NCBI GenBank assembly: GCA_030737835.1
Contig: CM060857.1
Coordinates: forward strand, 10,070,797 to 10,134,796
DNA: 64,000 nt
Direction: 5' to 3'
Origin: Acorus gramineus
Taxonomy: Eukaryota; Streptophyta; Magnoliopsida; Acorales; Acoraceae
Positions 1 through 52,690 of this stretch are shown in pieces. Below the pieces are notes generated by a model, which worked only from the letters and a program-made list of their open reading frames with translations, made no database searches and was not told the DNA's origin. The first letter of the stretch is position 1; every line of letters begins with the position of its first letter. A program made the translations under genes and the position numbers.

Positions 1-1334
1 ATGGGTTTAGAGACTAGATGTTCTTATTGTTGCAAGATTCAAGGTCCAATCTTATTCATCATTTATTTTTAAACTCATGCAACCAATCTTAGCACATAGT
101 TTACTTCTTATAAATAATTGGTCTCTTGTTCTATTCCCAACTTGATATGATCTGTGTAGTGGGAAAAAAAAAGTCTGCTGGTGTAACTAAAAAATACAAT
201 ATACATAAATCATGGATGTTTAACTGGCATGCTTTTTACATGGAATAATATTCTAACAAGTCTTATTTTTAATTCTATTTTTATGATTAATGACGCATAT
301 ACCTTGTTTGGAGGGTATATGAATTATATACCTCGGAAATGAATATAGATGTCTCAGGGCCTAATGGTCAGTTTGTTGTTCATCCTCATTTTCTTTCATT
401 TTCTTTTTATTAGAGAATATGCGGTAAATAGAGTTTGACATCCTCTAGTTTGTGTAATTTCTGGGAATCCAGAAAATTATATTCATTCCTCATTCCTCTA
501 AATTCACCAAAATTAGATTCTTAGAGAATGGTGAATTCTCATTTTGCACCAAAATTATCAAACTGAATATGTGATTGGTTCTTGGAATACTATTTTTATG
601 AGGGAAATAATTTTATTTCACACACTTTTACAATTAATTCATATATCCACTGGGGGCTAAAAGAAGAATTACATGAATACCTGGTTGTTTGTCAATCCAA
701 GAACTCATCACACAGAGGGTCCATGTCACAAGACAAAATCAATCATTCACTTTCTATTTCTATTTCAGGGTCCCCCCATCAAGAAAAATTAGGGACCATG
801 GAATTAATCAGACATTAATTCAGTAGTACAATAGCATCAATTCTGTATCTCCAATTTAAGCCCCATTTGGAAACGGTTTGAGTATGAGCTTTTCCTACAA
901 GGTTGGATTCAAAACCTAGTTTCTAAGAAACTGCCTCTCTATAAATTTTAGAAAAGCTATCTTTTAGTAAATTTTATTAGTAAAATTTAATATCTACAGC
1001 TTTTAATTAAGCTACAACTTTTTTTTTTTTTTTGACAACGAGGCTGAGAAACTCAGTGTTCCTACAACCCTAGCAAATTCAATACTCAAAAGCTATAGCT
1101 CAAACAATACAAACTGAGAATTCTCAAGTGGGACCTCTCCATGTGCTGGCCAATCGACCCCCTCATCTGTGTTCTCTCCTCTTTCATATTTTTCTTTGCA
1201 CTGTTCACATATTATATAGTAATTCCATGTATGCGCGAGCGCATGTATATATAATGAAATAAAAAGGAAGTAAAAGCAAACACCCAAAGAACTTTGTGAG
1301 CTTAGTAGCTCCACCACCACCACCACCACCACCA
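1..1334. other. Upstream region of the first CSLA gene
   Basis: No coding region is recognised here. The DNA is AT-rich with short homopolymers. A TATA-like stretch (ttatatag) lies near 1210-1217 and a CCA-repeat run abuts the proposed start codon at about 1310-1334. This is probably the promoter and 5' leader of the following gene, but no transcription start can be fixed from sequence. Confidence 0.5.
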
Positions 1335-4300
1335 ATGAAGACCAATGTGTTTCAATTTATACTACTCTTAGCTTCAGTTGCCACCACTTCTGCTGATCAA
1401 ATCACCCACACTTCTTCAGGTAACACAAAAAAGGCCAGCACAAGTCTGCTTTGCTTTACTAAGGCTAAGACACTAATCACATCCATTGTAGATACTCCTC
1501 CTCCATTGCGCGCCTTCGAATTCTACTTCGATGAAGTTCGGACCGCCTTGCGATGGTTTGGTTCAACGTGGAGGACCGTTAGAGTGAAAGCGGTGGTTCC
1601 GGTGTTCGAGATCACAATATGGGTGTGCCTACTGATGTCTGTGATGATCTTGGGTGAGAAACTCATGGTGGGTGGTGTGAGTCTCTTTGTGAAGGTGTTG
1701 GGGCTCAGGCCTGAGAAGAGGTATAAGTGGGAGCCTATCAGTGGTGGGGATGCTGAGATTGGTCACTCCGCTTATCCAATGGTGCTTGTTCAGATCCCAA
1801 TGTACAATGAAAAAGAGGTCCTCTTCAATTCAACCTCTCACACACTCTGTAATTCTCTCTGTTTTTGATGATTTGATGAAGAGTTTTTGTTTGTGTGATC
1901 TGAATTAGGTGTACAAGCTGTCCATTGGAGCGGCTTGCGGGCTCTCGTGGCCGTCCGATCGGATGATTATACAGGTGCTCGATGATTCAACGGACCCCGT
2001 TGTGAAGGTTTGTTTCAGAACCTTTTTTTCTTAATTGCGCGACTAAAGTCCTGTTTGGAGCCAATTGTCATAATTAGCCTGATCTTTTTAACAGGTCTTT
2101 CGTAATACATATAAAAATCAAAATGTAAAACAATAAACTTAAGTTTATAAATATAACTTCATTTGGAACGGATTGTTTTTGCAAAAGCTTTGACAATCAA
2201 TTCCTGTTATATATGACAACATGAAACCTAGTGAACAAACACAGTATAGCTAGTCCCACCAAAGCTCATGTCTTGGTAGCAGCAATTGATTAAAACCATT
2301 GGCCAGAGATGTCTATTTGTTCGTCCCCAACAAAGCTCACAGGAACCACATTTGTTGTCCAGGACTGTTAGCACGTGATGAAGAGCTGGACCTCACTCTC
2401 TCTCTCTCTCATTTCATGTTTCATCATTTGTTTTGTGTTATGTGTTTCAACTTGGTCTCTCATCATCACATGCATTGGACAGGGTGTGGGGTTCTTATTT
2501 GATCGACAATATTGACTTATTAGTTTTAGGTGGTGTATAATGTGATGTTATACTGTGGCTATCTAGGCTCCCTTTTGATCCGGGGAGTTGTTTTTTTTAT
2601 TTCATTGACAAGGTTGAACGTGTTGAGTGTTGACAAATCCAAGACATGAAAACATTGAATATTTAAGATCCGATACCGAAACAGTACTAACTGAGTCAGA
2701 GATTGACAGCTTGGTTGTTACTTTGTTGTTTTACTATTTGTTCATTTTATATGATTATATTGGGGCTACAACTTGGGTCGGGTTGAATCTGAACCCGACG
2801 GGTTGAATCCGATTTTTACATGGGTTGGATTGACCAAATCGGGTTCGGGTTGATCAATTCGGGTTGACTCACAAATCGGATTGGATTCGGATTGGCCTTA
2901 CTCACAACCCGATCCAACCCAAACCCGTAAACTAATAGTTAAAAAAAAAATCATGGCCGTTCATTCTGTGCCTTCTAATCTGGGTAGTTCAAATTTTAGG
3001 TAAACCTAGCTAATCTTACGGGTTGGATCGGGTTGGTCCAATTCGGGTTAGGTCGGGTTGGTTTATTTAATTACGGGTTGGGTTCGGGTTGGTCCAATTC
3101 GGGTTGAAAATCGGATTGGGTCGGGTTAAGGTTGAGTAGTTTAGAATTTGAGTTAGGTTCGGATTGAAGTCAACCCGAACCTAACCTGCTTGAGTTGCAA
3201 CCCTAAATTATATGGACAATTAACCTGTCCAACTTTTTATACAGTTATTATGAGCCAAACAAAACCAAGCAGACCGAGCCATCTCATTATGAATAATAAG
3301 AATGAAAGGGTTTTACACTTTTACTGTACATGTTTGAGGGTCAGTCAATGCCCGGACCTATTTAAGCCAATGAATAATAATACTTTAATTAAATTCCATA
3401 CATGCGCATAATCTGACTCTACCTTAATTTCTCCAACACATTTCAATAAAATTTCTATAAAATTTGCATAATGAAGGTTTTGGCTTATAAACATATGCCA
3501 GGAAATGGTGGAGAGTGAAGTCACAAGGTGGTCTAGAAAAGGCATGAACATAAATTACGAGGTCCGGGACAACCGCAAAGGTTACAAGGCCGGGGCCCTC
3601 CGGGAGGGCATGAAGCACGAATACGTCAGACTGTGCGACTACGTCGCCATCTTCGACGCCGACTTCCAGCCCGAACCGGACTTCCTCATTCGGATGATTC
3701 CGTTCCTTGTATACAACTCCGACGTCGCTCTCGTTCAAGCCCGGTGGAAGTTTGGTGAGAGACTTAAATCACTGATTTAGTACTACTGATTCATATAGTT
3801 TGGTAACAAAGGAGAATTTCATTTTTGTGTGGACATCTGAGCAGTGAATGCCAATGAGTGTTTGATGACGAGGATTCAAGAGATGTCTTTGGATTACCAC
3901 TTCAAGGTGGAGCAGGAAGCGGGGTCGTCGACCTTCGCCTTCTTCGGTTTCAATGGTGAGTTGCTCTTTCGATATTTGATTAAAGAAGAAATTCTCATAT
4001 AAATACATATGACTTCAAACAAAAGGTGAAGACTAACATTTCCTTATATGAATTAGTATTATTACAATTTACGACGAAGATCATGGTCTCAGGGACTGCT
4101 GGGGTATGGCGCATTGTGGCCCTCAATGAAGCCGGCGGTTGGAAGGACCGGACTACGGTAGAAGACATGGATCTTGCAGTCCGAGCTAGCCTTGGAGGAT
4201 GGAAGTTCGTCTACGTCGGAGATGTCATGGTCAAGAGCGAACTTCCAAGCACATTCAAGGCCTACCGATTCCAACAACACCGATGGTCTTGCGGTCCTGC

Positions 4301-5270
4301 AAATCTGTTCAAGAAAATGGCGATGGAGATCGTAAAAGCCGGAGTAAGTAGCGCTTCATTTACAGGACCATCAACTGCAACATGAACACTAAAAACACAC
4401 TTTCTGGTCATGTGTTTGAGCCTCAGCATTTATTTAATTAAAAAATTACATTTCTTGGTCCTTTTGTCTGCAGAAAGTGAGCATATGGAAGAAGCTCTAC
4501 ATGATCTACAGCTTCTTCTTCGTGGGGAAGATCGCTGCACACACGGTCACTTTCACATTTTACTGCGTGTTAATCCCCGCATCCGTTTGGATTCCGGAGG
4601 TCGAAATCCCGCAGTGGGGAGTCGTTTATGTCCCATTAGCCATCACTCTCTGCAAAGCGGTCGGGACGCCAAGGTAGAGATATCGTCCTTTTCCACAATC
4701 AATCTTTTCATAATGAAAATGTTACGTTCAATCATTTTTACAATCTTATTTGCAGCTCACACATATTTTAATTTTTTATTTTTTGAAGTATGTATTTTTT
4801 TGTTATGCATTAGACGATTTTATACACTGATGAATTACTGCAGTTCCATCCACTTGATCGTGTTTTGGATCCTCTTCGAGAACGTGATGTCGCTGCATCG
4901 GATCAAAGCAGCGATAATCGGATTGTTGGAGGTGGGGAGGGTGAACGAGTGGATCGTAACCGAGAAGCTCGGCGACACATTGAAATCGAAGACCGAGAAC
5001 ACAGTGGAAGAGGTGAAGATCAGCATTTCAGGAGACACCGACATCGCAAAGCCGCTCATCGACGGATCAGCCAAGGAAGTAACAAAGAAGCCTCAGAATG
5101 GGTGGTGGTCGAGGCTCAATTTCTGGGAGCTCTGCGTGGGATTCTTCATAATGTGTTGTGGATTATACGACGTTCTCTACGTGAAGAAGGGGTACTATGT
5201 GTACCTCTTCTTACAATCCACTGCTTTTCTTGTTGCGGGTGTCGGATACGTCGGCACGTTCGTTGCATGA
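1335..5270 (+). CDS. CSLA: Cellulose synthase-like A (glucomannan 4-beta-mannosyltransferase), copy 1
   Basis: This is a family GT2 mannan synthase, which makes the beta-1,4-mannan/glucomannan backbone from GDP-mannose (and GDP-glucose) in the Golgi. Exons: 1335-1419, 1492-1817, 1909-2007, 3502-3754, 3845-3955, 4093-4343, 4474-4673, 4844-5270. They sum to 1752 nt (583 aa) with every phase matching. Visible GT2 landmarks are DDSTD (from residue 162), DADFQ (222-226), TVED (313-316) and QQHRW (352-356). Hydrophobic segments flank the catalytic region near residue 70 and after residue 375. The start was chosen because the next upstream in-frame codons only encode a CCA-derived proline run. The N-terminus (residues 1-20) resembles a signal peptide, which is unusual for a multi-pass synthase. 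Compared with copy 2, two introns are absent (after the GDV/GDL motif and before the C-terminal membrane segment), and a roughly 30-residue polar insert precedes the last membrane segments. CSLA identity is very secure; substrate preference is inferred from the family. Confidence 0.95.
1420..1491 (+). other. Intron 1 of CSLA copy 1, in frame and stop-free
   Basis: This 72-nt intron has GT-AG ends (cag|gtaaca ... gtag|atac). Its length is a multiple of three and it has no stop in the reading frame, so retention would add 24 residues instead of breaking the protein. The equivalent intron in copy 2 is 88 nt and would shift the frame. Confidence 0.75.
2762..3204. repeat. GGGTTGG-rich MITE-like element in CSLA intron 3
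   Basis: This block of degenerate GGGTTGG/GGGTTCGGG motifs has related inverted ends (GGGGCTACAACTTGGG at the left; TGAGTTGCAACCCT at the right). A second copy lies in opposite orientation at 58092-58563, sharing the unusual core (catggccgttcatt ... taggtaaacctagct). No clear target-site duplication is seen here. It is probably a non-autonomous DNA transposon. Confidence 0.65.
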
Positions 5271-5395
5271 AAGCGTTTGATTTGATTTAGATGTTCTGAT
5301 TTATAACACATGTATATCAGTCATTTCCCAATCTAGATGTATATGCGATTTTTTTGTTATCTCCTGTACTGGTGGGGGAACTTGAATTTGACAAG

Positions 5396-18625: not shown

Positions 18626-21600
18626 ATGAGAGTCCTCATGTTCTTCTTCTCCCTCCTCCTCACATCGGCTTCCGCACTCAACATCACCAGAGACACTCCA
18701 CTCACCAAAACCTGTAAGAACCACCAAACCCACCCCAACCTTTTGTTTTCATCACTGTCACTCGCTAACGTGCCTCTGCTTTCCTCTTCTTCCTTGTGCA
18801 GTCTCTCAAGTGCTCGATGTGATACTCTCTCAAGACAAGGTTTTGCTGGTTTGGGTCGAAGTGAGAGCAAAAGTGGTGGCACCCCTAATGAGGGTGGTGG
18901 TGTGGGTGTGTCTGGCCATGTCTGTGATGATGTTTGTGGAGGCTCTGTTCATGGGTCTGGTCAGTCTTGTAGTGAAGGTTCTCAAGATGAGGCCTGAGAA
19001 GAGGTACAGATGGGAGGCCATGAGAGGTGATGATGATGATGCTGAGATGGGTCACTGTGAGTTTCCTATGGTTCTCATTCAGATCCCCATGTACAATGAA
19101 AAAGAGGTTCCACTTACCATCTTTGGCTTCTTCTCTCTGTTTTGTGTTTACTTTTTTTTTTTTTTTTAATGGTCTCTGTTGCTTTAACTCAAAGTGGGGG
19201 ATGGTTGTGTGGTTGTTTTTGTGGTGAAATTGAAAGGTGTACAAGCTATCAATAGGAGCCGCTTGTGGTCTTTCATGGCCGTCTGATAGGATGATCGTAC
19301 AAGTGCTTGATGACTCGACTGACCTTACTGTGAAGGTACGTGTTTAATTATGGACATCTTTTGATTCTAGTCAATAATGTGTGCAATTTTCTTTAAAGAG
19401 GATGTTATATGTGGTCCTTTTTATTAGAGTTTTCACACCCTCATTTTGTTTGATAAAACATATAATTATTTTTTTTATGTCTTTTTTTTATATAAATGAG
19501 TGTACTAATCAAATATATGTTTTAAAAAAGGGTTTTTTAATTTTAAGTTTTTATAAATTATATGTTTCAGTGATCGATCTCTCACTTTTTCGTATTATAT
19601 TTAAGTTCTTAGATTTAAATAATACGTTCTTTTTTAATCCCTCACATGAATTAATAAGAAAATCAAATAATTTAATTATAGGTCTCTCATAGAGATTAAT
19701 AAATAACATACCTTTTAAATCTAAAGACTTAAACTATAATATAAAAAAAATGAGGGATTGATCACTCTATCGCATGTTTTAGGAGGACTGAAAAATAAAA
19801 ATCCCTTTAAAAGATAAATCATAAAATGTGTATACTGCAGACGTTAACGTTAGCCCTTTTGGACTATAGTTTTTGAGGAAACTGATGTGCAATTGTGCAC
19901 CATTAAAATAAGAATAGAAAAAAAAATGCTATATCACACTTCTTTTGATCCTAATTCTCACCCTAAAGTTGTTTTTCCAGAGAGTACATGAAGACAATTT
20001 TTTTTTGTTTTTTTTGTTGAGGAGGTATGGCCACGTAGCGTTTGATTATGCGATTAAACATCTTTTATGTTTGTAGAAAATTAATTCTATAATCGTACAA
20101 TCAAATTGTTTTACAATCACAGTTTCCTGTAGATATATTTAAAGTAAATAGTGTCTAAAAGGTGCTATTAGAGAAAGCTGGGGAGGCAGCTTCCTGCAGA
20201 ATCAGTTTTAAACCCAGCCTTTACAAAAAATCAGTTTTGTAATCCCGTTATCAAGCGTTGGGTGCGTGTTTGGTTACGCAATTACAAAACTGATTATATA
20301 GGAATCTGAGTTTTAAAACTGAATCTGCATGAAACTCACGCCTCCCCCCCCCCCCTCCAGCTTTTCAAAATCGCATTTTTTAGAAACTAATTGCTTGAAA
20401 TCTATATATAAGAAACTACTATAGTAAAATTACTTAGTTACACGATTACAAAAGCAGTTTTTTACCATCACAAAAACTGTGCAATCGCAAAATCAAACGC
20501 ATCAAAATAGTGCTGAGAAACAAAATTAGGGTTCAAAATGGCACGTGAAAGAACACATGTTTAGTGAGATGGCTTAGTCAGCGTTGGTGCTTTTTTGGAA
20601 TTAAGTAGGTGTATGCTGTAATTTTTGGATTAAAAAAAGTAGGTATGATTGTACTACAAATCACAAATAAACACATGTAAAAGCAGTGGTAAAAAAAAAT
20701 CAGAGGCTTGAACATTAATGAGTTTCAGTTGGTCCCACGTGAGAGCTTTTTTTGTTTGCTATGGTTGTTGAGGTTTGAACATTATTTAGGTATGTCGATG
20801 TACTCTTAAAATTCAATGACATAATGTCAATGTTAAAAAATCTTTGCTCATCCATTGAGCCAACGGTTTTTGAGAACCAACTGAATATTTATTAAAATAT
20901 ATTAAATCTAATAAAAAATTTAAATTATATATAATAAGATCACTGTTCAATCTAGCTAACCCGTTTATGTTCGTTTTTCCATTCAATTAATAACACTTGG
21001 TTTTAGGTTGCCCCACGTGCATGTATATGTATATATTATGTATGATTCTATAGAAGGTTTTAGGTCTTAGGTTGCATGTACATGAATATTCTTATGATGC
21101 AACATTAGGGTTACGGATGGTTACATGTCAGGGTAGATGGGACATGTGGTCTGAATCTGGTCATCATTTGTCTGTCGTTGAATAAGCAGCTTTTATTTTA
21201 TTTTATTTTGCGGATCTTTAGATATAGATCCTTGAAAAATGGAATTTTAGGATTTGGTCCTCGTGATGAGAATATTCAAGAAGGTTAGTCTTTGTCCTTG
21301 CAATTACACGGTTCACAAATTGCCACAATAGTAGATTTGAGTTTAAATCTTGATTATGAATGAAAGTGACCTCCTTGTCCTAGTATTAAAAAAAAAAATG
21401 GCAATTGCTTCTATTTTTTTTAATCACAGGTAACATTATTGGTAAAGATAATCTTATATGCAATTTTCTAGTATTTTTACAAAAAAAAAAAATACTACAA
21501 TGAATTTTATATATATTCTCTTATGTATTAAAAAAAAATTCACATGTTCATTCTAACAAAACATATACAATGCACGTGAATTGAGGGACTAAATCCTAGA

Positions 21601-24600
21601 TCTTCGAATTTTCATAGACCTAATAATCAGAGTTTAAAAAGAAGCAAAAAAGAGAAGAAAAGGAAGCTTTGTTAACATGGCCTCTAATCTGTAGAGGCTA
21701 CAATGGACAAGTTCATATAATTAAATTAAACTCTTTTGACCTTGCAGCATCGGATTGAACAATAAAGCTATAATAACCATATGAACGATATAAAACAATG
21801 AAAAATCTTGAAAATAGCACATCATATTTTAGTATTTTGTTTCCCTCCTTTGGAAGTCTTTGTTTAATGACAGTATTTAATTAATTTCAGCTTTGCATGC
21901 CTTGCGCCATATTAAGCTCCTTGCTTTTCCCAATAAACAATTGGCTCTGATAAAATAAATTTATAAAATAATAAAATGAAAATTTATTCAAACATGTGGA
22001 GTCACTCAGAAACAGTATGATTTAAAAAAAAAAAAATGGATATAATAGTTAATATATTTAATGGACAAGGGCAGCCAGAAGCAATAGTTATTCAGATCCA
22101 ATAACCAAAATGTTAACCATTTTAGTGAGCTAAACTGACCTGTATCAATCATAAAAATTATGGTATCTGTACCTAAAAGTGATTGAATGGCACGTCGTTT
22201 TGTAACAAGTCCTTGTCACCAAATTGGTTTAAGTTTTTTTATCAACAGATCATAAAACATCTGTAACCATATCTAATGGGACAAACACAATCAAACATGT
22301 TTCTTTTCCCAAGATATAACCTATTACTCCAGTATCCCATTTTACAAAGAAGGGGAAATAATGTGAATGCAATAAGATTCATAGAGTTGTAATTCTGTGA
22401 GGCCGTGCCTAACTATGCATAAGTGGAAAACATACAATTTTAGGTGAGTGAATGATTACCCATATTAAGAAATTCAGGAATGTGTGAGGATTCTAAAATC
22501 TTGGTGTCCCCTTTTATTTTTCTTGGATTGTAGGAATTGGTGGAATTGGAATGCAAGATATGGGCTAGCAAAGGCATGAACATAAACTATGAAGTCAGAG
22601 ACAACAGGAAAGGATACAAAGGGGGAGCATTAAGAGAAGGGATGGAGCACCCTTACGTGCAACAATGTGATTTCGTCGCCATCTTTGATGCAGATTTCCA
22701 GCCTGAAGCGGACTTCTTGATGCGAACCATACCTTTCCTGAAATACAACTCAGAGATAGCCCTGGTTCAAGCTCGATGGGAGTTCGGTGAGCTCACTTAG
22801 CCATTCCTGAATTGAACTTCATTGCATTACTGATGTAGTGCTGACAAAGTAAATAGAAGGAGAAAAACATCATCACATACAATTCTTTTCAGTTGGTTAC
22901 TACTGATACAGATGTTAGTTCACACTAATTTAAATATTTTCATATGAAATAGAGTGAGCCAGAAATCAAGCTTCCATTCTAATTAAAAAGGAAAAAACTA
23001 AGGTGCATGGACATGTGTATGATGCACCAGCTGAGTTCCATCCATGCATATTTCAGTTTTTATTTCATTCTGAATTTTGTCTATTTTTTGTCCCTCCTAT
23101 TTGACAGGGAGTTGTTGATGTGGAATGAATTTGCCGGGCGGTTTTGCAGTGAATTCGAAAAAATGCATGATGACAAGGGTGCAGAAGATGTCCTTAGATT
23201 ACCACTTCAAAGTTGAGCAGGAAGCCGGGTCGTCCACTTTCGCTTTCTTTGGTTTCAATGGTACAGCTTTTCTCCATCATAATAACTGCGCTTGAAAACA
23301 AGAAATGGTTTATTGAAGTAAAGAATTGTTTTACAGAAGGTAGTAATTGTGAATCAGATGGTGCTATATAGTTTTTTCTTATTCAATGGTTAGGTACTGC
23401 TGGTGTTTGGCGAATATCAGCTCTTAATGAAGTTGGAGGTTGGATGGATAGAACCACGGTGGAGGACATGGATTTGGCGGTTCGAGCGAGTCTGAAAGGT
23501 TGGAATTTTGTCTATGTTGGTGATCTCAAGGTACCTCATCTATCAATACATGGAGGATAAAATGTCTCTGCCTTAGAACAGGATGATCCTCGTATATAAT
23601 TGCTCAAAACAAGTATTTTGGAAGGGCAAGAGGATTATAAAATTTCACCCAGTCTGATTATCAGCATAGGTTCAATGGGCAATTCTTTTTTCAATGTAGG
23701 TGAAAAGTGAATTGCCAAGCACTTTTAAGGCTTATCGATACCAGCAGCACCGCTGGACTTGTGGAGCTGCGAATTTGTTCAGAAAAATGGCTGTAGAAAT
23801 AGTGAAGGCCAAGGTAAGAATTTCCCAAAAAATATGGATATTCATATACAAAATCAGAATTGGTAACTTTTATATGATGTCTTGCTGTAGAGCAGGAAGT
23901 ATCACTGTGGAAGAAGTTTTATGTGCTGTATAGTTTCTTCCTTGTCAGGAAGGTTGTAGCGCACATTGTCACCTTTTTTTTCTACTGCATCGTAATTCCA
24001 ACATCCGTTCTGATTCCTGAAGTCAAGATTCCAGTATGGGGTGTTGTTCATATACCCACCACTATCACCCTTCTTAATGCCATCAGAAATCCAAGGTTTG
24101 GGTCCTCTATCACAATTATCCTCTCTCTACACCTTTTCATTTTTGGTTACTATGCCTAATTAGAATTTATACATAAGTAGCTATGTAAATTTATTCTAAT
24201 CATGTCACTACTCTGCCTTCAAAGGTGACATTGAACTTTTGATATCTGTTTATGTCTAAAGAGTAAAGGATACTAGTCACTGCACGCAGAGTTGCTGATA
24301 TAGCTTTGCGTGCATAGATTATCCAGATAAATAGGTTAAGCTGTTATAGCCGCACGCACGCACAAGCCTTACCCATTGTCTCAGTCGATAAACAAAGAAA
24401 AAAAATGTCATTGATACCAACAACTGGCTGGCCTACTTTCCTTTCTACCTTCTTTGACGTGGAACTAAAAATTTCCTATACTTGCTCAATGAAATGGGGG
24501 ATCTGTGTCTATCGCAGTTCAATACATCTATTGGTCTTCTGGGTGGTATTTGAAAATGTCATGTCGATGCACCGGATGAAGGCGACTCTGATTGGGCTGT

Positions 24601-25135
24601 TTGAAGCAGGGGGAGTTGACGAATGGGTAGTCACTGAAAAGCTGGGAGATGCTCTATTAGCTAAATCTGAAACTGGTTTGCTCCCTGAGAAACCTCCAAT
24701 CAGACTTCGGGACAGGTAAAATTTTCATTTTACAATTCCATTGAGCTTCCTAGGCCCAACATATCCATCGTTTCACACGCCAAATCCTGCCAAAAAATAA
24801 GACTTCTTCAAATAGCAGAATGGATGAAACCAAGTAGTTAAGTAAGACAATTTGGAAACATGAAAACATGAATCCACTCACATGGTAATTTGGCTATCGA
24901 ATTATGTCTATATGCTTTCATTCTGTCTGAGTCTCATTCAAGGTTTCCTCATGCATGGAACTCGCGAAGCAGACTCAACTTCTCTGAGCTTGCGTTGGGC
25001 ATCTTCCTTCTTTTATGTGCGAGCTATGATGTGGCCTATGGAAACAACTACTACTATGTATATATCTATCTCCAAGCCACTGCGTTTTTTATCATGGGCT
25101 TCGGCTATGTTGGCACTTCCGGTCCCAACTCTTAA
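18626..25135 (+). CDS. CSLA: Cellulose synthase-like A (glucomannan 4-beta-mannosyltransferase), copy 2
   Basis: Tandem paralogue of the gene at 1335-5270, with the same Golgi mannan-backbone role by family. Exons: 18626-18713, 18802-19106, 19237-19335, 22534-22786, 23150-23260, 23394-23530, 23700-23813, 23896-24095, 24518-24715, 24943-25135. They total 1698 nt (565 aa) with all phases consistent. GT2 residues are present: DDSTD (from 156), DADFQ (216-220), TVED (307-310) and QQHRW (346-350). The N-terminus ([17 protein letters not shown]) looks like a cleavable signal peptide, as in copy 1. The exon 8 acceptor is ambiguous between 23893 and 23896, a difference of one glutamine. The segment [13 protein letters not shown] carries lysines where copy 1 has glutamate ([13 protein letters not shown]). 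Intron 3 is 3.2 kb and contains a pair of head-to-head MITEs. The gene looks intact and functional. Confidence 0.95.
20038..20502. mobile_element. Two head-to-head MITEs forming a large inverted repeat
   Basis: Copy one (20038-20257) and copy two (20262-20502) belong to the TGCGTTTGGTTGCG family also seen at 14681-14905 and lie in opposite orientations, almost touching. Shared internal motifs (cctgcagaatcagttttaaac versus gttttaaaactgaatctgcat) show the inversion. The pair is inside intron 3 of CSLA copy 2 and would form a long hairpin in the pre-mRNA. A C-run lies at about 20344-20355. Confidence 0.7.
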
Positions 25136-26802
25136 CAATGTGAGACCTATCTAACGTTCACTGATATTCATTGCTTCTCAATATAATTGCATCTCCTATT
25201 CTGGGTTTCCTTCAGCCCTTCTTTTGATAAGGCAAGGAAGAAGAAACTCTTGATGGGTAGATCATCACGTGAATCAAAGGTAGATACCTTAGTTCAGGGA
25301 AGTAAAACGGCTAGAATTTTTGCAGCTGTCTTCACTTTTTCTTTCTGTCATTGTTGTTATCCTTGTTGTTTGTAAAGGGAACCACAGATATTTCATTTGG
25401 TGGAACTCTATATCTGGATGATTCTTCGGAATACATAAAGCACTCAAATGCCTCTTTTTCTCCTGAAGTGGTCGGAAAAGGCTAGGGACATCTCAAAATA
25501 TATGAGTGGATGAAGCAAAAGATAAGGTAGAATAACGTGGGAGGCAGACCTCTTTCATTTGCTCTTGCAGTTTGTCATCCAACAAAAACTGTAATGGCTT
25601 TTTATTTATGATTCATGAATTCTCTGTTTTTTGTATGTTTGTTATAATTTTGATGGCTTCTGGAATGTCCTTTATCGATGTAAAGTGTTGATCTCAGTGT
25701 AGTATTCCATGGAAACCATCCTTTCAGGACTTTCCATTTGATATGTTTTAGAACCATTATAGAAAGCAATAATTGACACATCCCCTCTCAGAAGAATATA
25801 GTTGTAACCATAAACATGGCAGTCTCAAAATAAATATAACTAAAACAACGGAAGTCACTGACTCACTTACTGATAAATGATTTTCCAATAACACTGTCTT
25901 AGGCTTTCAAGACATCCTGCAGAAGGATCAAGACTAGATGATTTGAATAATCTCTGATGCAGTGTTACAACAAGGACTGTCAACTCCATTGGTAGTATCT
26001 GCACAACATATACAATGTTAGGATTATTAAATTTATTGCCATAAAGTGCTAGATCAATCTACAAAGTCATCCCCAGAACATCAACCCATTGACCCACTAT
26101 ATATTCACCCAGGAAAACTATGTCTATGACCAGTGAATGCATAAACACAAATTAAACGCATATATTTACAGTTTCCTGCACTATAAGCAATAGCTGTTAT
26201 TAATCTCAACGGTTCCTCTCCCATTCAACTTTTGTATCTTCCTCGCCATAACAACTCCAGAGAAGTATTGCCTTGCTGTTTAAGAAAGCTTTGGATAAGT
26301 AGATATGGAGGTGCTGATTTAGGAATTTAGTGAAACAGATCCATTAAAGTGCAAATAAAAAAAGAGATGCCATGATAATCCAACCACTTGTATATTTTGA
26401 ATCACAATCAAGTATACAACATTATCCACCAGTTCACTAATGGAACAGAAGCAAAAGAATATGTATAAATGGTGGCACAATGCCACAAAAAATGATAAAA
26501 TTTGAAGCAGCAAGGGATCAGACATAAATGGCAGGACCCATGGATATAGAACCAGGCAAAAGCTTATCAAAACATGGTGCTCAGGGAATAAAATAATGCC
26601 CTATGCACTTCGCCTGCAAGTGAATAATCAATTCCATTGTATTTTGCTTTCTAAATCAACCAAGAAAAGCCTTTTGAAGAGAAGTTCCCATATATCTGAA
26701 GCCAATGGTGGACATCTGATCTTTGACCGCATAGCAGCATTGTTAAGGCAATACCAGGAAATGGGATCATTACCACATGATGATTTATTTAACATCCACC
26801 AC
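25136..26802. other. Convergent intergenic region between CSLA copy 2 and the AAR3-like gene
   Basis: The two genes converge here, so the region should hold both 3' UTRs. No coding exon is supported. A candidate AATAAA on the plus strand is at 25829-25834; others are too ambiguous to assign. Confidence 0.5.
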
Positions 26803-35812: not shown

Positions 35813-37742
35813 GGCGGTGTTTGGTGCATCCACTATTAAGAGCTTATTTAGCTGAAACCGGATAATTTCCTGTTTAATGAGTATAAGCATGTTTGGTTGA
35901 TAGCACAAAATCAGAGCTTATCATTCCTCCATCCTCTAAATAAGCTCGAATAATTTCCTCCACATCCCGTCCACTTAATAATCCGCAGTCGCCTTTCCTC
36001 GTTTTTAAACCGAGGTGAAATGACCTCTGTACCCCTACAACTTAACCCAAATTACCAGAGGTATAAAAGGGGGAAACCAAACACACTCTCTCTCTCCACA
36101 CTCATTTCTCTTCGTCGAGTCCTTCGAATACCGCTGCTGAGGAGGAGCTCTCCCAAACCCTAGACGGTATGGGGTGACTTCGTCCCTCTCTTTAGCCCCA
36201 AATAAGCCCAAAAATGTGTTCCTAATCGAAGATCCAAACCTCTTTCAAGCTTTAGCGACGTGAAGACCACCGAATCTACTTCCTGTTCTGGCCACCCCTG
36301 ATCGCCGGACCTCCACCGATCCTCTCTGTTCTGGCCACCCCTGATCGCCGACCCTCCACCGATCCTCTCTGTTCTGGCCACCCCTGATCGCCTGACCTCC
36401 ACCGATCCTCTCTGTTCTGGCCACCCCTGATCGCCGGACCTCCACCACCTTCGCGGACAGGCATCTCCATCTCCGTCTCTGTCTTCATCTCTCGACCAGG
36501 CCGAGCTCGTGCCTTCCCTTCGGATTTCCTCCACATCTAACTAGCAAGGTAATAAATAAAATCTGTGTGGTAGGGTTTCATTTTTAAAGGAATGTAAAAC
36601 CCCATTTTCACCCAAGTTTTGTTTTTGATCTGCTTTGAAATATGTTTCCTACACTATGTTTGTATATATTGTTTGTATATATTTGTTTCCTACACTAGCT
36701 TGATAGACATGTTTAGGGATTGCTCATTGATAACCACTGTTTGGTGCTAACACAAGCTTGCTACTATTAAAATTTCAAGACCACAGCCAATGGGGTTCAG
36801 GACCAAACCTAAACAAGGTGGAGAAGGAAAGTTCAGGTCCACGGCCAATGGGGTTAATGATATTCGGATGTTGCGCATGCTTCTGTATCATGTTGTTGGT
36901 TTTTGTTATCTTTATCTTGCTTTTAATCTTAGCTATTAAGTGACTGTAGCACTTCCATTAATCTACGCTTGTCATTATATATTCAATGCCTATCAAAAAA
37001 TATATTAACAGCTGTAGGGATAATGATGTAACATTATTAGGACCTCTGGAGCAGTCAACATTGTAACGTATTCAGGATACGCGATGTTTCGAAGTGTTGA
37101 AATCCCCAAATCATGTTTTTTTTGCTCCTTATGTCGGACCAACTAATATATTAGCCTCTTTCTTGTCTATGTGGACTCTTCTTCTATGAGAAACTGGGTT
37201 ATAATGTGTATATTCATGGTAGTTTATGCAATATACCTTGTCCTAGCAATGATGTAGTTTATTTTTTTGCTCTCCCTGTTATTCAACAATGGCATTTGAA
37301 AATTTTTGTGCTCCATATTATTCTTTGCAATCTCCACAGATAGATGGAAATTTATAATTATCAAAGTTTAATGTACAGTTTGATAAAAAATTATTTGTTT
37401 TTCATGTGTAGCCCAATCCACAAAAATATTTAATTGTATAATATAGGGCATTTGTGGTTGATGTATTTAATGGAAAAAAGCATTAATATTTAATATCTCA
37501 AAGCATGTTTTCAACCAAACATCAAAATAACATTCAGCACTTATAAAATAGACTGAAATACCCTCCTAATAAGCACATATGTTAAATCGTCAACCAAACA
37601 CACTTATCTAAATAACTGCATAATATTTTCTGCTGAACCAAACACTTTTTTTTCTGAACTCTTAAAGATTATCAGCATAACCTCTTTCTGCACTTATTAA
37701 TCAGTACTTAAAATCCGCATTCCGCTGCTGCCAAACACCGCC
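35813..37742. mobile_element. PIF/Harbinger-like non-autonomous element (1.93 kb)
   Basis: It has perfect 12-bp terminal inverted repeats, GGCGGTGTTTGG and CCAAACACCGCC, flanked on both sides by TTA (35810-35812 and 37743-37745), the 3-bp target-site duplication typical of PIF/Harbinger. There is no transposase. The interior has a GC-rich portion with a TATA box (tataaaag, 36062-36069), a CT-rich leader-like stretch, a 43-bp minisatellite and a possible splice donor (gcaag|gtaata, near 36549). This suggests capture of a host gene 5' end. Confidence 0.8.
36284..36455. repeat. 43-bp minisatellite, four units
   Basis: The unit containing tgttctggccacccctgatc recurs at 36284, 36327, 36370 and 36413 with a few substitutions. 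As 43 is not a multiple of three, all three minus frames stay open and read the same RSGVARTERIGG peptide in turn. Those overlapping open frames are therefore artefacts. Confidence 0.95.
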
Positions 37743-38792
37743 TTAGTCCCAAACAAAGTAATAAGATGTCATTTTTTTATGCATGAATGAGATATAGGGA
37801 GGTGTGTACATAATAAATAATTTCTTTTAAAAAATAAGTGTCTTCATACATAATCTTTTTTATCGTCTTAAATGTCATTTCATATATCTCATGAATAATC
37901 CAACTAAAATACATATCTCGTTATTTTATTTTTTTACACAAATAGATCATTCATATACATTTTTATAATATATATATATATATATATATCATTAAACAAA
38001 ATTTACTATTTTTAAAAAATTAGCACATATGCAGACTATTTATAGGACTCTTATTTGAAACTGTGCGTAACATTATCCTTAAAAAAAAATACATGTGGCT
38101 ATACATTACATTTTGATATGGTTGGTTCGTAACGCTACGGCATTCAAAGGTGAACAGACGTATGTCAAGAGCATGTGGGAGATCCTGGTGTAGCTACTCC
38201 GAGATTGGGCGCGCGAATTAGTCAACGCAAGGGGGGTGCGCTTCAATGGGGGCACACAAGACTGTGCATGGCCAGTGGCGAGTTGACACCTGGTTCACCC
38301 CCGAGACACTTATGTATCATTTTATTATTTTATCTTTTTGATTTATTCGATATCTTCTTATCCCCAGTTCAGAATTGTACTAACTCATTTTTATATGAAA
38401 TTGGTTGGTAGCTAGATTTTATTTTTTTCCGAAAAAAAAAATACATGAGACATTTAAATTATTCCATAATAAATGAGGTAGTGCAAATAAATGGGGGTGG
38501 ATGCACATTGAAGCGGTGCAAATAGAGGCCCCCAACGGTCCAAATTCCTCCCGTTCCACTGCAAGACCATAAGTCGGCTTTAAATCAACGGTCGATGATG
38601 AAGGTGACGTCACTAGGATCAGCCTGCCTCGTCGGTTACAGTGGACCCACCGAACACGACAAATACACCGAACTCCACGACGGGTGAGAACAAGAGCGGC
38701 TTCTAGACTCTTCCACAACCTTCTCAACTTCGGCGATCACATCTTATAATCTCTCCTTCTCTTCAATCTCTCTCTCTCTCTCTCTCTAATTC
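37743..38792. other. Region upstream of the RING-H2 gene
   Basis: No gene is recognised. A (TA)n tract lies at about 37969-37989. From 38500 the composition turns GC-richer, and a CT-dinucleotide tract (about 38768-38787) directly precedes the RING gene start, as in many plant 5' leaders. Confidence 0.5.
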
Positions 38793-39326
38793 ATGGATCA
38801 ACAGACGGAATCCGGCGTCCGAGGCTTCTCGATCGTCTTCCCTGTTGTACTGAACCTCTCGGCGACGGTTCCCCCCGGCGAGCCCCACCGCGGCCTCCTC
38901 GTCATCAACCTACAAGGCGGCGGTCCCGATGAGGGCGGCGGGGACGGGGCGGCGCAGATGATGTCGCTGGAGGACCTCTTCACGCGGCTCGCGGAGGCGG
39001 CGTCGATGGCGGAGACGGGGCGGAAGGGACCGCCTCCGGCGTCGAAGGCGTCGATCGCGGCGATGGAGGAGGTGGAGGCGGCGGCCGTGGCTGAGGGGGA
39101 GGAGTGTCCCGTGTGCCTCGAGGGGCTCGCGGAGGAGGAGGCGCCGGCGAGGGCGATGCCTTGTAAGCATAGGTTCCACGGGGAGTGTATAAGGAAGTGG
39201 TTGGAGATGCACGGGTCTTGTCCAGTGTGTAGGTTTCAGATGCCGGCGGAGGAGGAGAAGGAGGGGACGAAGAAGGCGGCGGAGGAGGCGGTGTCGGAGG
39301 GGGATCGAGGCGCCGATGAGAGTTAG
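38793..39326 (+). CDS. RING-H2 E3 ubiquitin ligase, MPSR1-like
   Basis: Single-exon 177-aa protein. The RING-H2 zinc ligands are all present: C105, C108, C124, H126, H129, C132, C143 and C146, with the conserved tryptophan W136 that typically contacts E2 enzymes. By family it transfers ubiquitin from an E2 to substrates. The segment PPASKASIAAMEEV just before the RING is characteristic of plant cytosolic RING proteins of the MPSR1/RING1-like type (subgroup is inference). There is no signal peptide or membrane segment. The C-terminal tail is acidic and lysine/glutamate-rich. The start follows a CT-rich leader with no in-frame ATG closer. The gene is strikingly GC-rich, with G/C at most third positions, against AT-rich surroundings. 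Substrate is unknown. Confidence 0.93.
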   Translation: MDQQTESGVRGFSIVFPVVLNLSATVPPGEPHRGLLVINLQGGGPDEGGGDGAAQMMSLEDLFTRLAEAASMAETGRKGPPPASKASIAAMEEVEAAAVAEGEECPVCLEGLAEEEAPARAMPCKHRFHGECIRKWLEMHGSCPVCRFQMPAEEEKEGTKKAAEEAVSEGDRGADES

Positions 39327-41056: not shown

Positions 41057-42975
41057 TTATTTATGCTATATATTTTGAGATGTTTCCAAGAATTTTGGAA
41101 TGATTTATACAAGGTGTCATGAACTAGTTATATTTTGTGTATTTGAATTTTAATATATTTATGTTAGAACAATTGTAATTTTTTTTATTACGAATGTAAT
41201 TTACATGCATGTTGTTATATAATTTTTTTATTATATTATATATAGGGATTAACTCTATTAGACTTGTGGGTATGGATTTCAAAATTCAATCCCAAAAGAT
41301 ATATAGAGTCACTTATTGTGAAGCTAAAGACGGTTTGGATTATGTCAAATACGACTCCAACCAACCCCGTTATCATCCCTGAGGATGGCTTGTAGGGGGA
41401 GAGAGAGAGGAGAAAGAAAGGTCAGGAGAGAATGAGAGAAGTGAGAAAGAGAGGTAGGAGAGGGGGACGGCCTCCTCTGTCCAGGCTTGTAAATTGAACT
41501 ATATTGTTTGTTCAGTTTTAGGTATCAATAACAGACCAGGTCGACCTACCCTCAAAAAATGAGACCCAAGCCGGGCCCAGGATTCTGGGCTTTTCTCACC
41601 AACAGGCTCAGGTTGGGTTTCCCCCTAGACAAACGCAGACCCGGGGCCCACCTTGAGCATCGGGCCTGAACGGGCTTGGGTATTGGGCCTGCGGGTAGGC
41701 CTGTCAACGGGTCAGATCCAGACTTGGACCCGACCCGACCGAGACCTGATTACACCGATTCGATTTGGAGCAGACCCGGTGAACCCGAATATACAAACGA
41801 GTTGGGTCCGAGTCCACCCCGCCTCGATCCGTTGGATCCGAAACCCGATTGTTTTATTAATATATGCTTACATATTAGAAGACTGTTAGTATTAGTTGAT
41901 CCATAATTTTGTTTCTTATTTATCAAGTTGCAAGTATATGTTTTAACTTCATTTTTGTATCCATAAGTCCATAATCAAACTCATAAATCATAATCCATAA
42001 CCAACCAAACACATCCGTTAACTTATTAGCCTTATTTATGCTATATATTTTGAGATGTTTCCAAGAATTTTGGAATGATTTATGCAAGGTGTCATGAACT
42101 AGTTATGTTTTGTGTATTTGAATTTTAATATATTTATGTTAGAACAATTGTAATTTTTTTTTATTAAGAATGTAATTTACATGCATGCTGTTATATAATT
42201 TTTTTATTATATTATATATACTTGTGGGTATGGATTTCAAAATTCAATCCCAAAAGATATATAGAGTCACTTATTGTGAAATTAAAGACGGTTTGGATTA
42301 TGTCAAATTTGATTCCAACCAACCCCGTTATCATCCCTGAGGATGGCTTGTAGGGGGAGAGAGAGAGGAGAAAGAAAGGTCAGGACAGAATGAGAGGAGT
42401 GAGAAAGAGAGGTAGGAGAGGCGGACGGCCTCCTCTGTCCAGGCTTGTAAATTGAACTATACTGTTTGTTCAGTTTTAGGTATCAATAACAGACCAGGTC
42501 GGCCTACCCTCAGAAAATGAGACCCAAGCCTGGCCCAGGATTCTGGGCTTTTCTCACCGACAGGCTCAGGTTGGGTTTCCCCCTTAGACAAACCCAGACC
42601 CGGGGCCCACCTTGAGCATCGGGCCTGAACGGGCTTGGGTATTGGGCCTGCGGGTAGGCCTGTTAACGGATCAGATCTAGACCTCGACTCGATTACACCG
42701 ATTCGATTTGGAGCAAACCCGGTGAACCCGAATATACAAACGAGTTGGGTCCGAGTCCACCCCGCCTCGATCCGTTGGATCCGAGACCCGACTGTTTTAT
42801 TAATATATGCTTATATATTACAAGACTGTTAGTATTAGTTGATCAATAATTTTGTTTCTTATTTATCAAGTTGCAAGTATATGTTTTAACTTCATTTTTG
42901 TATTCATAAGTCCATAATCAAACCTATAAATCATAATCCATAACCAACCAAACCCATCCGTTAGCTTATTAGCTT
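41057..42975. repeat. Large tandem duplication, two units of about 975 bp
   Basis: Unit one (41057 to about 42030) and unit two (42032 to about 42975) match along their length at an offset near 975 bp, for example ctatatattttgagatg and gtaagtagtt-type flanks through ccataaccaaccaaac. Unit two lacks an 18-bp segment near 42219 and about 16 bp in its GGGTCCG-rich part. Each unit contains a GA-rich tract and a GCCTGTCAA-started, GGGTC-rich stretch. Non-coding. Confidence 0.9.
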
Positions 42976-48276: not shown

Positions 48277-49721
48277 CAATAATGATTCTCATGCCCCAAC
48301 TTCCCACGCCCCATGATGTGGCAAGTGTACATTGTCTATTATACCCTTAAGCCTATTTGGGAAACATTGCGGTTATGATTTTCTTCCGTTTTGTATGGAG
48401 TTTCAACAATTCATGTGATTCCTCAAATCGTGGAGTATCATCAATGCCGATCATCTTTGGATTAAACTATCAAAATTATTTTTGCACCAATTTTAATCAA
48501 TCTTTCATCTTCGGAACCAAATTATATATGATGAACACATTGTAGCAAATATGAAATTTTAATTTTGAGAAGTTGGAAGACACTGATTTGTTCTTATTCG
48601 AGTTGGATCTCCTATCAATGTCTTTTGGATCAGGTTTGACAATTGTTTTTTTATCATATTATGATCTTATTGGAATGCAAGTCATATCCGAAATTAAAAT
48701 TAATCCGAAATTAAAATTAACCTTTTTTTGATCATATATTCAATCAATGTTACATGTTTTAAATTTAGAACACGATTTTTTTTTATGTATTGATCGTCAT
48801 ATTACACTTTTTTATTTTGTTTCGTTTTAATTTCATAAATGTAACACTCGATATTGTTACATTTAATTTTTATACGGTTTGTATAATGTTAGTATTACAT
48901 TTCTGACGTCAAAATATACATATTTATTTTTTGATACATTCATAAAATGTAACAGTCTGAAATGTAACATTCATTCCTGTATTGCATTTCTTACAATGCA
49001 AATAGTAATTTATATTTGTTACATTTATAAATGTAACAGTCAATTACATACTTTTGTGGGGGAATCTGTTACATTTTCTTTGGAATGCATTGCACTAAAA
49101 ATTGAAATAGATTATTTCGAAGAGTAAATGTAACTGTTAGACATTTAGGTAAATGTAATTGTTTGTTCCATCAATGTAAATGTAACAGTTTTTATGTAAA
49201 TGTAATAAATCGTTGTGAAAGATGTAAATATTAATGAAATGTATTTGTACCTACCAATATAAAATGTAACTGCTTCATATGGTAACTATATGTGTTTTTT
49301 ATTTAAATTTGAAAACAATAAATATCTAACTTTTTTAATATTCAGTTAATAACATTCTTAAAAAAAATTAATGTGTATAATAAAGAATGTAAGTTTGAAA
49401 AAACAAATCTAGGCCGTTTGAAGGATTTTGATGAAAATAATTTATGTAATTTTTGGTGTAATCTAAATTCCATTATAATTTAGGTAAGGATTTCAAAATT
49501 CAAAATTTGAAATAGGTAAATAGATTTTAAGATTCACATGGAAGAGTCATAACCGAATAGAGAAAATGGGGGGATTTTGTTAAGGGGACATATTTTTAAT
49601 GAAGGGCAAATTTGTATTTTGCCATATTACCCTTTTTGAAAAGTCAATAAGTCAACCAATGAAATGATGACACCTCATGAGACTTATGAGTGAGGCTTAT
49701 ATTTTGGGGCCTGGGTATCAT
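48277..49721. mobile_element. Inverted-repeat transposon, right member of the complex (element C)
   Basis: It runs from CAATAATGATTCTCATGCCCC to GGGGCCTGGGTATCAT and matches element A in reverse complement along nearly its full length (for example ggccgtttgaaggattttga against its complement at about 43530). Many AATGTAAC motifs occur. A plus-strand open frame (48879-49127) has GESVTFSLECIALKIEIDYF, related to peptides in A and in the element at 11171-12945. Confidence 0.75.
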
Positions 49722-49737
49722 AACTGCTTTTTTTATT

Positions 49738-49905
49738 AACCATATTCGGGTCTGGTTGGATCCGGGTCTTGGGTTGGATCCGGGTCCACATTTTCAAGGA
49801 CCCGCCGGGTCTTGGGTTGGACCCGGATCCACCAAGTCTTGCCACGGGTCGGGTCCGGGGCCACCCTGACCCGGCCCGGACTCGACCTGTTGACAGGCCT
49901 ACCTG
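49738..49905. repeat. GGGTCCGGGT-rich block with GCCTGTCAAC end
   Basis: Degenerate GGGTCC/GGACCC motifs end in cctgttgacaggcctacc, the reverse complement of the GGCCTGTCAACGGG start seen in both 975-bp units (about 41697 and 42657). It is probably the outer end of an element of that family. Confidence 0.55.
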
Positions 49906-51999
49906 CGGGACCATATTAAAAAAATTGTAATTGGCTAGGGCGTTGTTACACTCAGTTTTTTTACAGTCCTATTTACCTCGTTAGAAATTCAATGAAACAT
50001 CTCGTCTAACAATGTATGTACCTCGTTAAAGTTTTTTTACACTTATTAAAATTGAGTTTATTCAATTTAAAATGAAACGATATATATTTTTTATCAAAGC
50101 ATATACTTCATTATATGATGTTAACTATTTTTAAAAAAATGAAAACATCTCTGAGTTTAAAATTTTCCATTTGGCTTGCCACTCCCTGTGTGCGCGCGTG
50201 TGTGTGTGTGTGTGTGTGTGTGTGGGAGGGGGGGGGGACCTCCCATGTGAGTCAGGCCCCAACCTTTGAGGATGATTTGACAAGGGGATAAGTGATCGAA
50301 TAAGGGATAATTATAGGAATAAGTGAGTGGGAGGACAGTTTATCCCCATGTGTGATAAAAAAATAATAAGGATAAACTGCGAACAGTTGTTCCAATTTTG
50401 AAATAAAAATGGAGATATTTTGTTCTACCTAAGGCTGTGATAGCATTTATCCCCACTTTTTGTTGGCTTTAGACCAGATAGTGATGCTTAGTTTTGGTTG
50501 GCTTTTAATTGTAAAAAAAAAAAAAATTGTAATTCTATATTCAGTCATTGATTTTGCAATTTGTTAAACAAGAGAACCATATAGGTCCTCTAGTTAAACC
50601 TACATTTTTTATTTTATTTTTGTAGATAAATGTTAGGACCTGAACTTATGACCTCTTGATTGTAAATTCTCTTATCAACAATGGTTGAACCTACAATCAT
50701 TATGTTCCTTTATTTATTGGAAAATTCACTTACTTAGTGTTTCCTTATCCGTTCATCCCAGCATCACCTCTATCAAATAAATGAAAGTTGTTACATACAT
50801 ATAACAACGCTCTTTAGAGAAAGCACAAATTTATGACAGCCACCAAAATTACTTAATTGTCTCTGAACACCTTTTGTACATTAGTTGAGTAGTTGTTAAT
50901 CCCTAAATTATTCAAATGATAAGATTTGGCAATCAAAACCAACTGACCCTTATTAATTTATTTTGATTGAGGCCTTTAGTCAATCTGATAGGGTTGGAAA
51001 AAAGAGACTTGAGTTTGGAACCTGGAAGTGAAAACCACGTCAACCCCACTCAACTGAAAAAAATAAAATAAGATGCTGTTATCTTTATCTTTACAAAGTT
51101 CTGGAGTTGTTCAACTATTCATCATTTGTTCTATAGTTCATGCACTTCAACTATAATGTCGATGTAATATGATTTTGTATACAAAGTAATATATAAATCA
51201 GCCAATCTGGCTTTACCAAAAAAAAAAAAAAAAAACCTTCTCTTGGATAATTTTCTTTTTATAGTTTTGGTCATTCCCAATAATTAATCCAACATGTCAT
51301 ATCAAGATTTTTTTGCGATTATATTGATTTAAGTGAAGACCTAACTTCAAGTGTATTTATTGAACTATCTTTTAGCAGGTTGGTAGAAGTACTCTCTCTC
51401 TCTACCAAGGGATCTCCTGATAGGAGAAGATTTGATCAGAAAATAAAATTACCAAGAAAAAAAAATTCACTGTGTACTTTAAATCAGATTTATTTGAATT
51501 TGTGAATGTAAAAAATGCACACACACATATATAATATTATTCTGTGTATGGCATAAATCAATCATCAAGAAAGTTTCTCTACTTTGTTTTCTTTAATATG
51601 ATGTCACAAACACAACTTTCTCAAACTTTAGGGATGTATTCTATTGACTTCACACTGGTTCCAAGCTCATCTAATATTCCAGTCCACTATTGAATAAGCA
51701 AGATCATCCCAAGGTTTTCATACAGGATTCAATGGTGATTTCTCATCATCTTCCATTATGAGCAAACGCACAGTCATTTTACAAATACAATGCAATGACA
51801 GTATGACACCCATTTGTAGAAGAGCAAGTAGTGAAGCTTTGGAAGCTCTTCCATATTGACACCCATTTGTAGAAGAGCAAGTAGTGAAGCTTTGGAAGCT
51901 CTTCCATATAACCATAGCAATATCATCGATTCTTGATTCTGTTAAAAAAAAATCACTTTTGTTCTCAAACTATGAAGTCAGAGAAAACCAGATGAGGCC
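49906..51999. other. Intergenic DNA with a GT/G-run microsatellite
   Basis: No gene is recognised. A (GT)n tract followed by a G-run lies at about 50195-50238, and A-runs near 50514 and 51220. A 53-bp tandem duplication (51805-51910; unit containing acacccatttgtagaagagc) lies just downstream of the peptide gene, possibly in its 3' UTR. Confidence 0.5.
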
Positions 52000-52622
52000 T
52001 CATGTTCTTCCTGGTGGCTTGGGCGTGTGACGATCATTAGCGATGGTTCCTTCATAATCAGAGCTCCCCAAGTCAATCCTTGCATCCATATATTCTTCTC
52101 CAACTGTGGCCTCCTATGTGACCACACCATTTCATTGCATAAATAATCACAAATAGAAGTTGATGAGTAGACCAAGGCACATATAAATATGAACATTCAT
52201 TAACTGAATTCATTCTATTCAGTGCACTACGGTAAAATTTTTTATGCAACTCGGCCTAGTTGTTGTGTTTTGGCTTGTATAAGATTAGCATTTTCAATAA
52301 TTGCAGTCCAATATTATCATATGAAAGTAAAATATATGTTATATATATGTATGTATGTATATATAAGCACTTGTACCTGGTTGATATCACTAGAAGCAGA
52401 AAATATTTGAGTTCTCTGAAAAAGATCTCGCGTTCCTGTAAACACCAAAAGAGATTTTGGATGTCAAAGAATGAAAATAAATATCAATTATTAGTAACGA
52501 GTTCATAACTCCTTGTTTAACAGAGAATTACTTGTTAAAGGAATCGCATCGGAGGAGAAGAAATGAGAGAAGAACAGAAAGATCACTAGTAGCTGAGAGA
52601 AGACCTTCCCATGTTTATGCAT
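52000..52622 (-). CDS. Small secreted peptide precursor, PSY-like (tyrosine-sulfated peptide type)
   Basis: Three exons on the minus strand: 52532-52622, 52377-52435 and 52000-52113, totalling 264 nt (87 aa), with phases 1 and 0 closing and GT-AG borders throughout. Residues 1 to about 26 form a signal peptide: a basic start (MHKHGK), a hydrophobic core (LLVIFLFFSHFF) and a likely cut after SSDA. The middle is variable and hydrophilic. The C-terminus reads DYEGTIANDRHTPKPPGRT (residues 69-87). Its DY-x4-AN-x2-H-x-P pattern has exactly the spacing of PSY1 peptides, in which the tyrosine after an aspartate is sulfated and the peptide signals through leucine-rich-repeat receptor kinases to promote cell expansion. 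A TATAAAG box lies 62 nt upstream. The gene model is strong; family membership rests on this short motif, and a different DY-type peptide family is possible. Confidence 0.8.
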
Positions 52623-52683: not shown

Positions 52684-52690
52684 CTTTATA
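52684..52690 (-). promoter_or_regulatory. TATA box of the PSY-like gene
   Basis: TATAAAG on the minus strand, 62 nt before the start codon, implies a short leader of roughly 30 nt. Confidence 0.6.

Follow-up and report, generated by a model that had tools for sequence, protein, structure and literature searches.

The window, i.e., the whole stretch of Acorus gramineus DNA that was analyzed (64,000 nucleotides, C11:10070797-10134796), carries on its minus strand a small gene at 52622-52000, hereafter the C11 gene, which consists of three coding exons separated by two GT-AG introns, the first in phase 1 and the second in phase 0. The coding part of exon 1 (52622-52532, 91 nt) starts with the ATG at 52622, encodes a signal-peptide-like N-terminus and ends in AIPLT plus the first base of the next codon (phase 1). 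Intron 1 (52436-52531, 96 nt, GTAATT..TTTACAG) is followed by exon 2 (52435-52377, 59 nt), encoding a variable pro-region and ending in phase 0, and by intron 2 (52114-52376, 263 nt, GTACAA..CACATAG). The coding part of exon 3 (52113-52000, 114 nt including the TGA) contains 36 codons from junction to stop plus E51 and is translated as EATVGEEYMDARIDLGSSDYEGTIANDRHTPKPPGRT. The resulting CDS of 264 nt encodes 87 amino acids without an internal stop, MHKHGKVFSQLLVIFLFFSHFFSSDAIPLTRTRDLFQRTQIFSASSDINQEATVGEEYMDARIDLGSSDYEGTIANDRHTPKPPGRT, with the C-terminal peptide DYEGTIANDRHTPKPPGRT. An earlier sequence-only reading of this DNA had proposed three exons joining in phase, and its coordinates and phase were borne out.

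Residues 1-26 (MHKHGKVFSQLLVIFLFFSHFFSSDA; 52545-52622, minus strand) constitute a predicted signal peptide based on hydropathy, with the cleavage placed after SDA according to the -3/-1 rule. The hydropathy peak covers residues 7-17 (11-residue Kyte-Doolittle mean 2.58), and beyond residue 28 the highest 11-residue stretch reaches only 0.17. The motif of the plant PSY peptides, DYEGTIANDRHTP (52021-52059, minus strand), occupies residues 69-81, which agrees with the earlier numbering of its tyrosine as residue 70; Y70 is the candidate sulfation site and is directly preceded by the acidic D69. Upstream of the start codon, a TATA-like TATAAAG (52684-52690, minus strand) lies in a stretch that is conserved with a sister copy and may represent the core promoter. 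A perfect 53 bp tandem duplication with two identical copies was found at 51804-51909; it lies approximately 90 bp past the TGA of the gene, whose 3' UTR may include it.

A Dof zinc-finger gene begins on the plus strand at 63402, 10.8 kb to the right of the C11 gene, and runs from there to 63998 and past the end of the window (Pfam PF02701, E 6.6e-34), its full ORF being found in the sequence beyond (L002). From its C-terminus we take it to be of the CDF type. Further to the left, two similar glycosyltransferase-like genes are present in pieces at 1263-5290 and 18630-25150, with a Pfam Glyco_trans_2_3 match at 3984-4382 and a Glycos_transf_2 match just below the cut-off at 22534-22797; judged by eye, they are presumably CSLA-like. 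A single-exon gene for a RING-H2 finger protein (zf-RING_2) was located at 38790-39323 on the plus strand, within a GC-rich island (38-40 kb, GC content 0.456). Repeated stretches at 41629-41903, 42460-42829 and 49687-49968 contain near-identical ORF pieces (TGLGIGPAGRPVNGSD...) and are probably copies of a mobile element, while the minus-strand stretch 36248-36536 is repeat-coding, its overlapping frames containing short units of the type RSGVARTERIGGG. Outside the window (L003, 378-2834 and 6056-9348), we observed a long ORF of 819 codons that resembles a transposase, apparently of the hAT type, together with pieces of copia-like retroelements.

PSY motif and family criteria

The criteria given for PSY precursors by Tost et al. 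2021 (PMC7913133) include the motif DYXXXX[AP]NXXHXP, a length of 60-200 aa and a motif position in the second half of the protein, and further an N-terminal signal peptide and similarity to the PSY1 precursor in BLAST at an E value of 20 or lower. The C11 product carries this motif including the Asp-Tyr start, and with 87 aa and the motif at residues 69-81 it agrees in length and placement as well. The earlier proposal that three exons encode a secreted PSY-like peptide is thus supported by the motif that the literature uses for PSY membership; at its N-terminus, the C11 product has a strongly hydrophobic core as a putative signal peptide.

Across the six frames of the window, DY....[AP]N..H.P has a single match, where 0.0004 matches are expected by amino-acid composition; for the whole genome of 398.6 Mb the corresponding expectation is approximately 2.5, so that the motif by itself is no proof of a gene. 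Exon chains are likewise cheap, since 44 alternative one-intron chains into DYEGT could be drawn from ATGs within 53200-51990, and 11 of these begin with hydrophobic residues. Given both the chance motifs expected genome-wide and the ease of drawing such chains, the case for the C11 gene rests on its relatives.

Sister loci and the duplicated block

A search of the genome with the last exon of the C11 gene yielded four scored candidates, all of which are PSY-like last exons: C11 itself (E 2.9e-19) and copies on C7 (9.5e-5), C2 (0.0024) and C1 (0.0029). This genome therefore contains at least four PSY genes. All three sister copies carry the exact PSY motif. Their gene models, which were set by hand with the C11 gene as guide, encode 89 (C7), 88 (C2) and 90 (C1) residues without a stop, contain a phase-1 and a phase-0 intron, both GT-AG, and repeat the layout of a leader exon with AIP[LI][TS] at its end, an exon 2 of 53-59 nt and a DY exon. 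The acceptor of intron 2 in C11 (CACATAG) is placed differently from that in the C7 hand model. Homologues keeping DY and H-x-P, on which the sequence-only reading had made its assignment depend, are thus present at three other loci of the same genome as well as in other plants.

Residue identity to the C11 product amounts to 48/83 for C7, 31/83 for C2 and 30/80 for C1, and the C2 and C1 products are identical at 65 of 86 residues and share the peptide DYPGSGANNRHDP. The dS values of 0.46 for C11/C7 and 0.49 for C2/C1, with saturation between the two pairs, suggest that each pair arose from one late duplication and that the pairs split in an older one. Judged by these sequences, C11 and C7 form a pair apart from C2/C1, that is, a sub-branch inside PSY and no new hormone group.

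We also compared the neighboring genes, looking for Dof relatives in sequence stretches around the PSY copies. Such relatives were located near two of the sisters, at a distance of approximately 21 kb for C7 and 6.5 kb for C2; none was found in four stretches of 10 kb each surrounding the C1 copy. On the other side from Dof, a MYB-CC gene together with an unnamed MVDxR gene is common to the C7, C2 and C1 copies (L008, L013, L019), and relatives of neither were detected in the window or in the further C11 stretches that were searched. Because they share Dof and/or MYB-CC neighbors, the four PSY loci are overlapping pieces of one duplicated block. Published locus numbers suggest the same PSY-Dof linkage in Arabidopsis, where AtPSY8 (AT3G47510) and CDF3 (At3g47500) are numbered consecutively.

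A chance assembly, in which unrelated exon-like pieces happen to spell a PSY motif, would draw on the genome-wide expectation and on the alternative exon chains described above, but it is at odds with the small expectation within the window and is contradicted by three other loci with the same layout and neighbors; we regard its probability as negligible. Based on the motif, the three sister loci with matching layout and motif, and the shared neighbors, the C11 gene is very probably a small three-exon plant gene for the precursor of a secreted growth peptide of the known PSY family.

Start codon shift and selection

In the nucleotide alignment of C11 with C7, the ATG that corresponds to the C7 start codon (52610-52612, minus strand) stands in a strong context, yet it opens only MGRSSLSY-stop, a frame of eight codons, and one base is missing in C11 after it. 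This gap may be an assembly error. The ATG at 52622, 10 bases upstream of ATG 52612, is in frame with the leader and lies inside a stretch that C7 lacks, and exon 1 of C11 is out of register with C7 for the first residues. Counted on the proteins, the alanine of AIP falls at position 26 in C11 but at 23, 22 and 22 in C7, C2 and C1, so the start-codon shift looks derived in the C11 copy.

The dN/dS ratio of C11 versus C7 was 0.64 over 83 codons and 0.54 over residues 11-87; by part, it was 0.57 for the leader (residues 11-30), 0.94 for exon 2 and 0.37 for exon 3 (36 aligned codons). For C2 versus C1 the ratio was 0.32. Estimated from few sites, protein constraint on the C11 copy appears moderate, which may reflect relaxed selection.

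It is conceivable that the C11 gene is a decaying copy, which after duplication lost the base behind its start codon, changed positions 6 and 9 of the peptide, and is now weakly expressed or untranslated. The one-base gap, the short frame opened by the strong-context ATG and the overall dN/dS ratios with C7 are in line with such a fate. On the other hand, the in-frame upstream ATG restores the leader, the 87 codons run without a stop, GT-AG is kept at both introns, the DY...H.P residues are retained, exon 3 shows the low ratio given above, and the TATA-like box with the stretch that follows it is well conserved between C11 and C7. We therefore consider decay quite unlikely.

Comparison with published PSY peptides

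The C11 peptide was compared with 20 published PSY-type peptides, of which 16 have the strict motif and which include near-identical pairs. Among those described are AtPSY6 (DYPGSGANNRHTPH), GmPSY-XSP1 (DYPPSAANGRHTPKPPY) and GmXAP1 (DYEGTGANKDHDPKSPGGA); GmXAP1/2 and GmPSY-XSP1 are reported as detected in sulfated form in soybean xylem sap (PMC11534595, PMC9369194, PMC9028419). The nearest of the 20 were GmXAP1/2, GmPSY-XSP2, AtPSY6 and one tomato peptide, each equal to the C11 peptide at 9 of 13 positions. Its DY-x4-AN-x2-H-x-P spacing, which had been described as equal to that of PSY1, is indeed identical to AtPSY1, with 6/13 positions shared. AtPSY1 (AT5G58650) differs in its tail and in other residues, and the places of the glycosylated prolines reported for PSY1 have no match in C11.

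The sequence-only reading had further suggested a distinct branch of sulfated peptides, given DRHTP in place of PKHDP. This suggestion could not be upheld: AtPSY6 has NRHTP, GmPSY-XSP1 has GRHTPKPP, GmXAP1/2 start with DYEGTGAN, and positions 9-13 vary widely among the published peptides, position 9 being P, N, T, G, K or A and position 12 being D, T, N or L. Only I6 and D9 of the C11 peptide are without precedent among the 20, and on this comparison T12, R10 and the KPPG tail are ordinary for PSY.

As mature peptides, GmXAP1/2 resemble that of C11 in the DYEGT-x-AN start, in HxPK and in PG near the end, with 12 of 19 positions equal, but differ in G6, KD at positions 9-10, D12 and the end SPGGA/P, where C11 has I6, DR, T12 and KPPGRT; their own reported chemistry comprises sulfation at Y2 and hydroxylation at P16. 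AtPSY6 (AT1G74458) and AtPSY8 (AT3G47510) share with C11 the motif, A7-N8 and R10-H11, and PSY6 also T12-P13, amounting to 9/13 and 8/13 equal positions, respectively; P3, S5, G6 and N9 set the Arabidopsis peptides apart. The C2/C1 sisters are nearer to these two than the C11 gene is. Judged by its locus number, consecutive to that of CDF3, AtPSY8 would also resemble C11 in having a Dof neighbor. With regard to gene structure, the two coding introns of the C11 gene differ somewhat from the counts in print, i.e., three introns in eight of nine tobacco PSY genes and two exons or three introns in those of wheat.

Since RGF/GLV and CIF peptides likewise start with DY, membership in one of these other sulfated families was considered. 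The C11 peptide lacks their C-terminal signatures (RGF1, DYSNPGHHPPRHN; CIF-like, DYGRYDPSPSLSKPPFKLIPN), as compared with four peptides, RGF1-3 and a soybean CIF-like one. With each of these four it shares only 2/13 positions, the DY itself, versus 8-9 with PSY6/8-like peptides, which makes this assignment highly improbable.

Discussion

PSY peptides have been described from higher plants as well as from a moss; their precursors are reported to have predicted signal peptides, to be sulfated by TPST and to be probably processed by subtilases (PMC7913133). According to Nguyen and Kim 2023 (PMC10519359), the receptors PSYR1-3, as long as no PSY peptide occupies them, repress growth and favor stress responses. 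Gene structure and motif of the C11 gene are read from the DNA itself, and every step after translation we infer from the PSY family. The leader would direct the C11 precursor into the secretory pathway, where TPST would sulfate Y70 beside D69. Subtilases would cut back the pro-region, leaving a peptide with DY at its start, and some hydroxylation of the prolines in its tail (PKPPG, at the C-terminus) is possible. Outside the cell, the peptide would bind PSYR-type LRR receptor kinases and favor growth over stress responses; in its absence, such receptors would repress growth and keep stress responses on.

It is also possible, though unlikely, that C11 and C7 represent a diverging sub-branch of PSY ligands, marked by I6/D9 and, in C7, by VVTQ-PN, with altered receptor preference or potency, and that the C11 copy survived the frame-breaking loss of a base by means of a new upstream start codon.

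The C11 gene is real and easily missed, yet of a known kind, an ordinary PSY gene, and it leaves the knowledge of sulfated peptide hormones unchanged. Its recovery demonstrates that PSY genes, in which each exon is shorter than 120 nt, can be found in raw plant DNA. The two gene pairs with their shared neighbors provide a set for asking how far positions within DY-HxP can drift while recognition by PSYR is kept.
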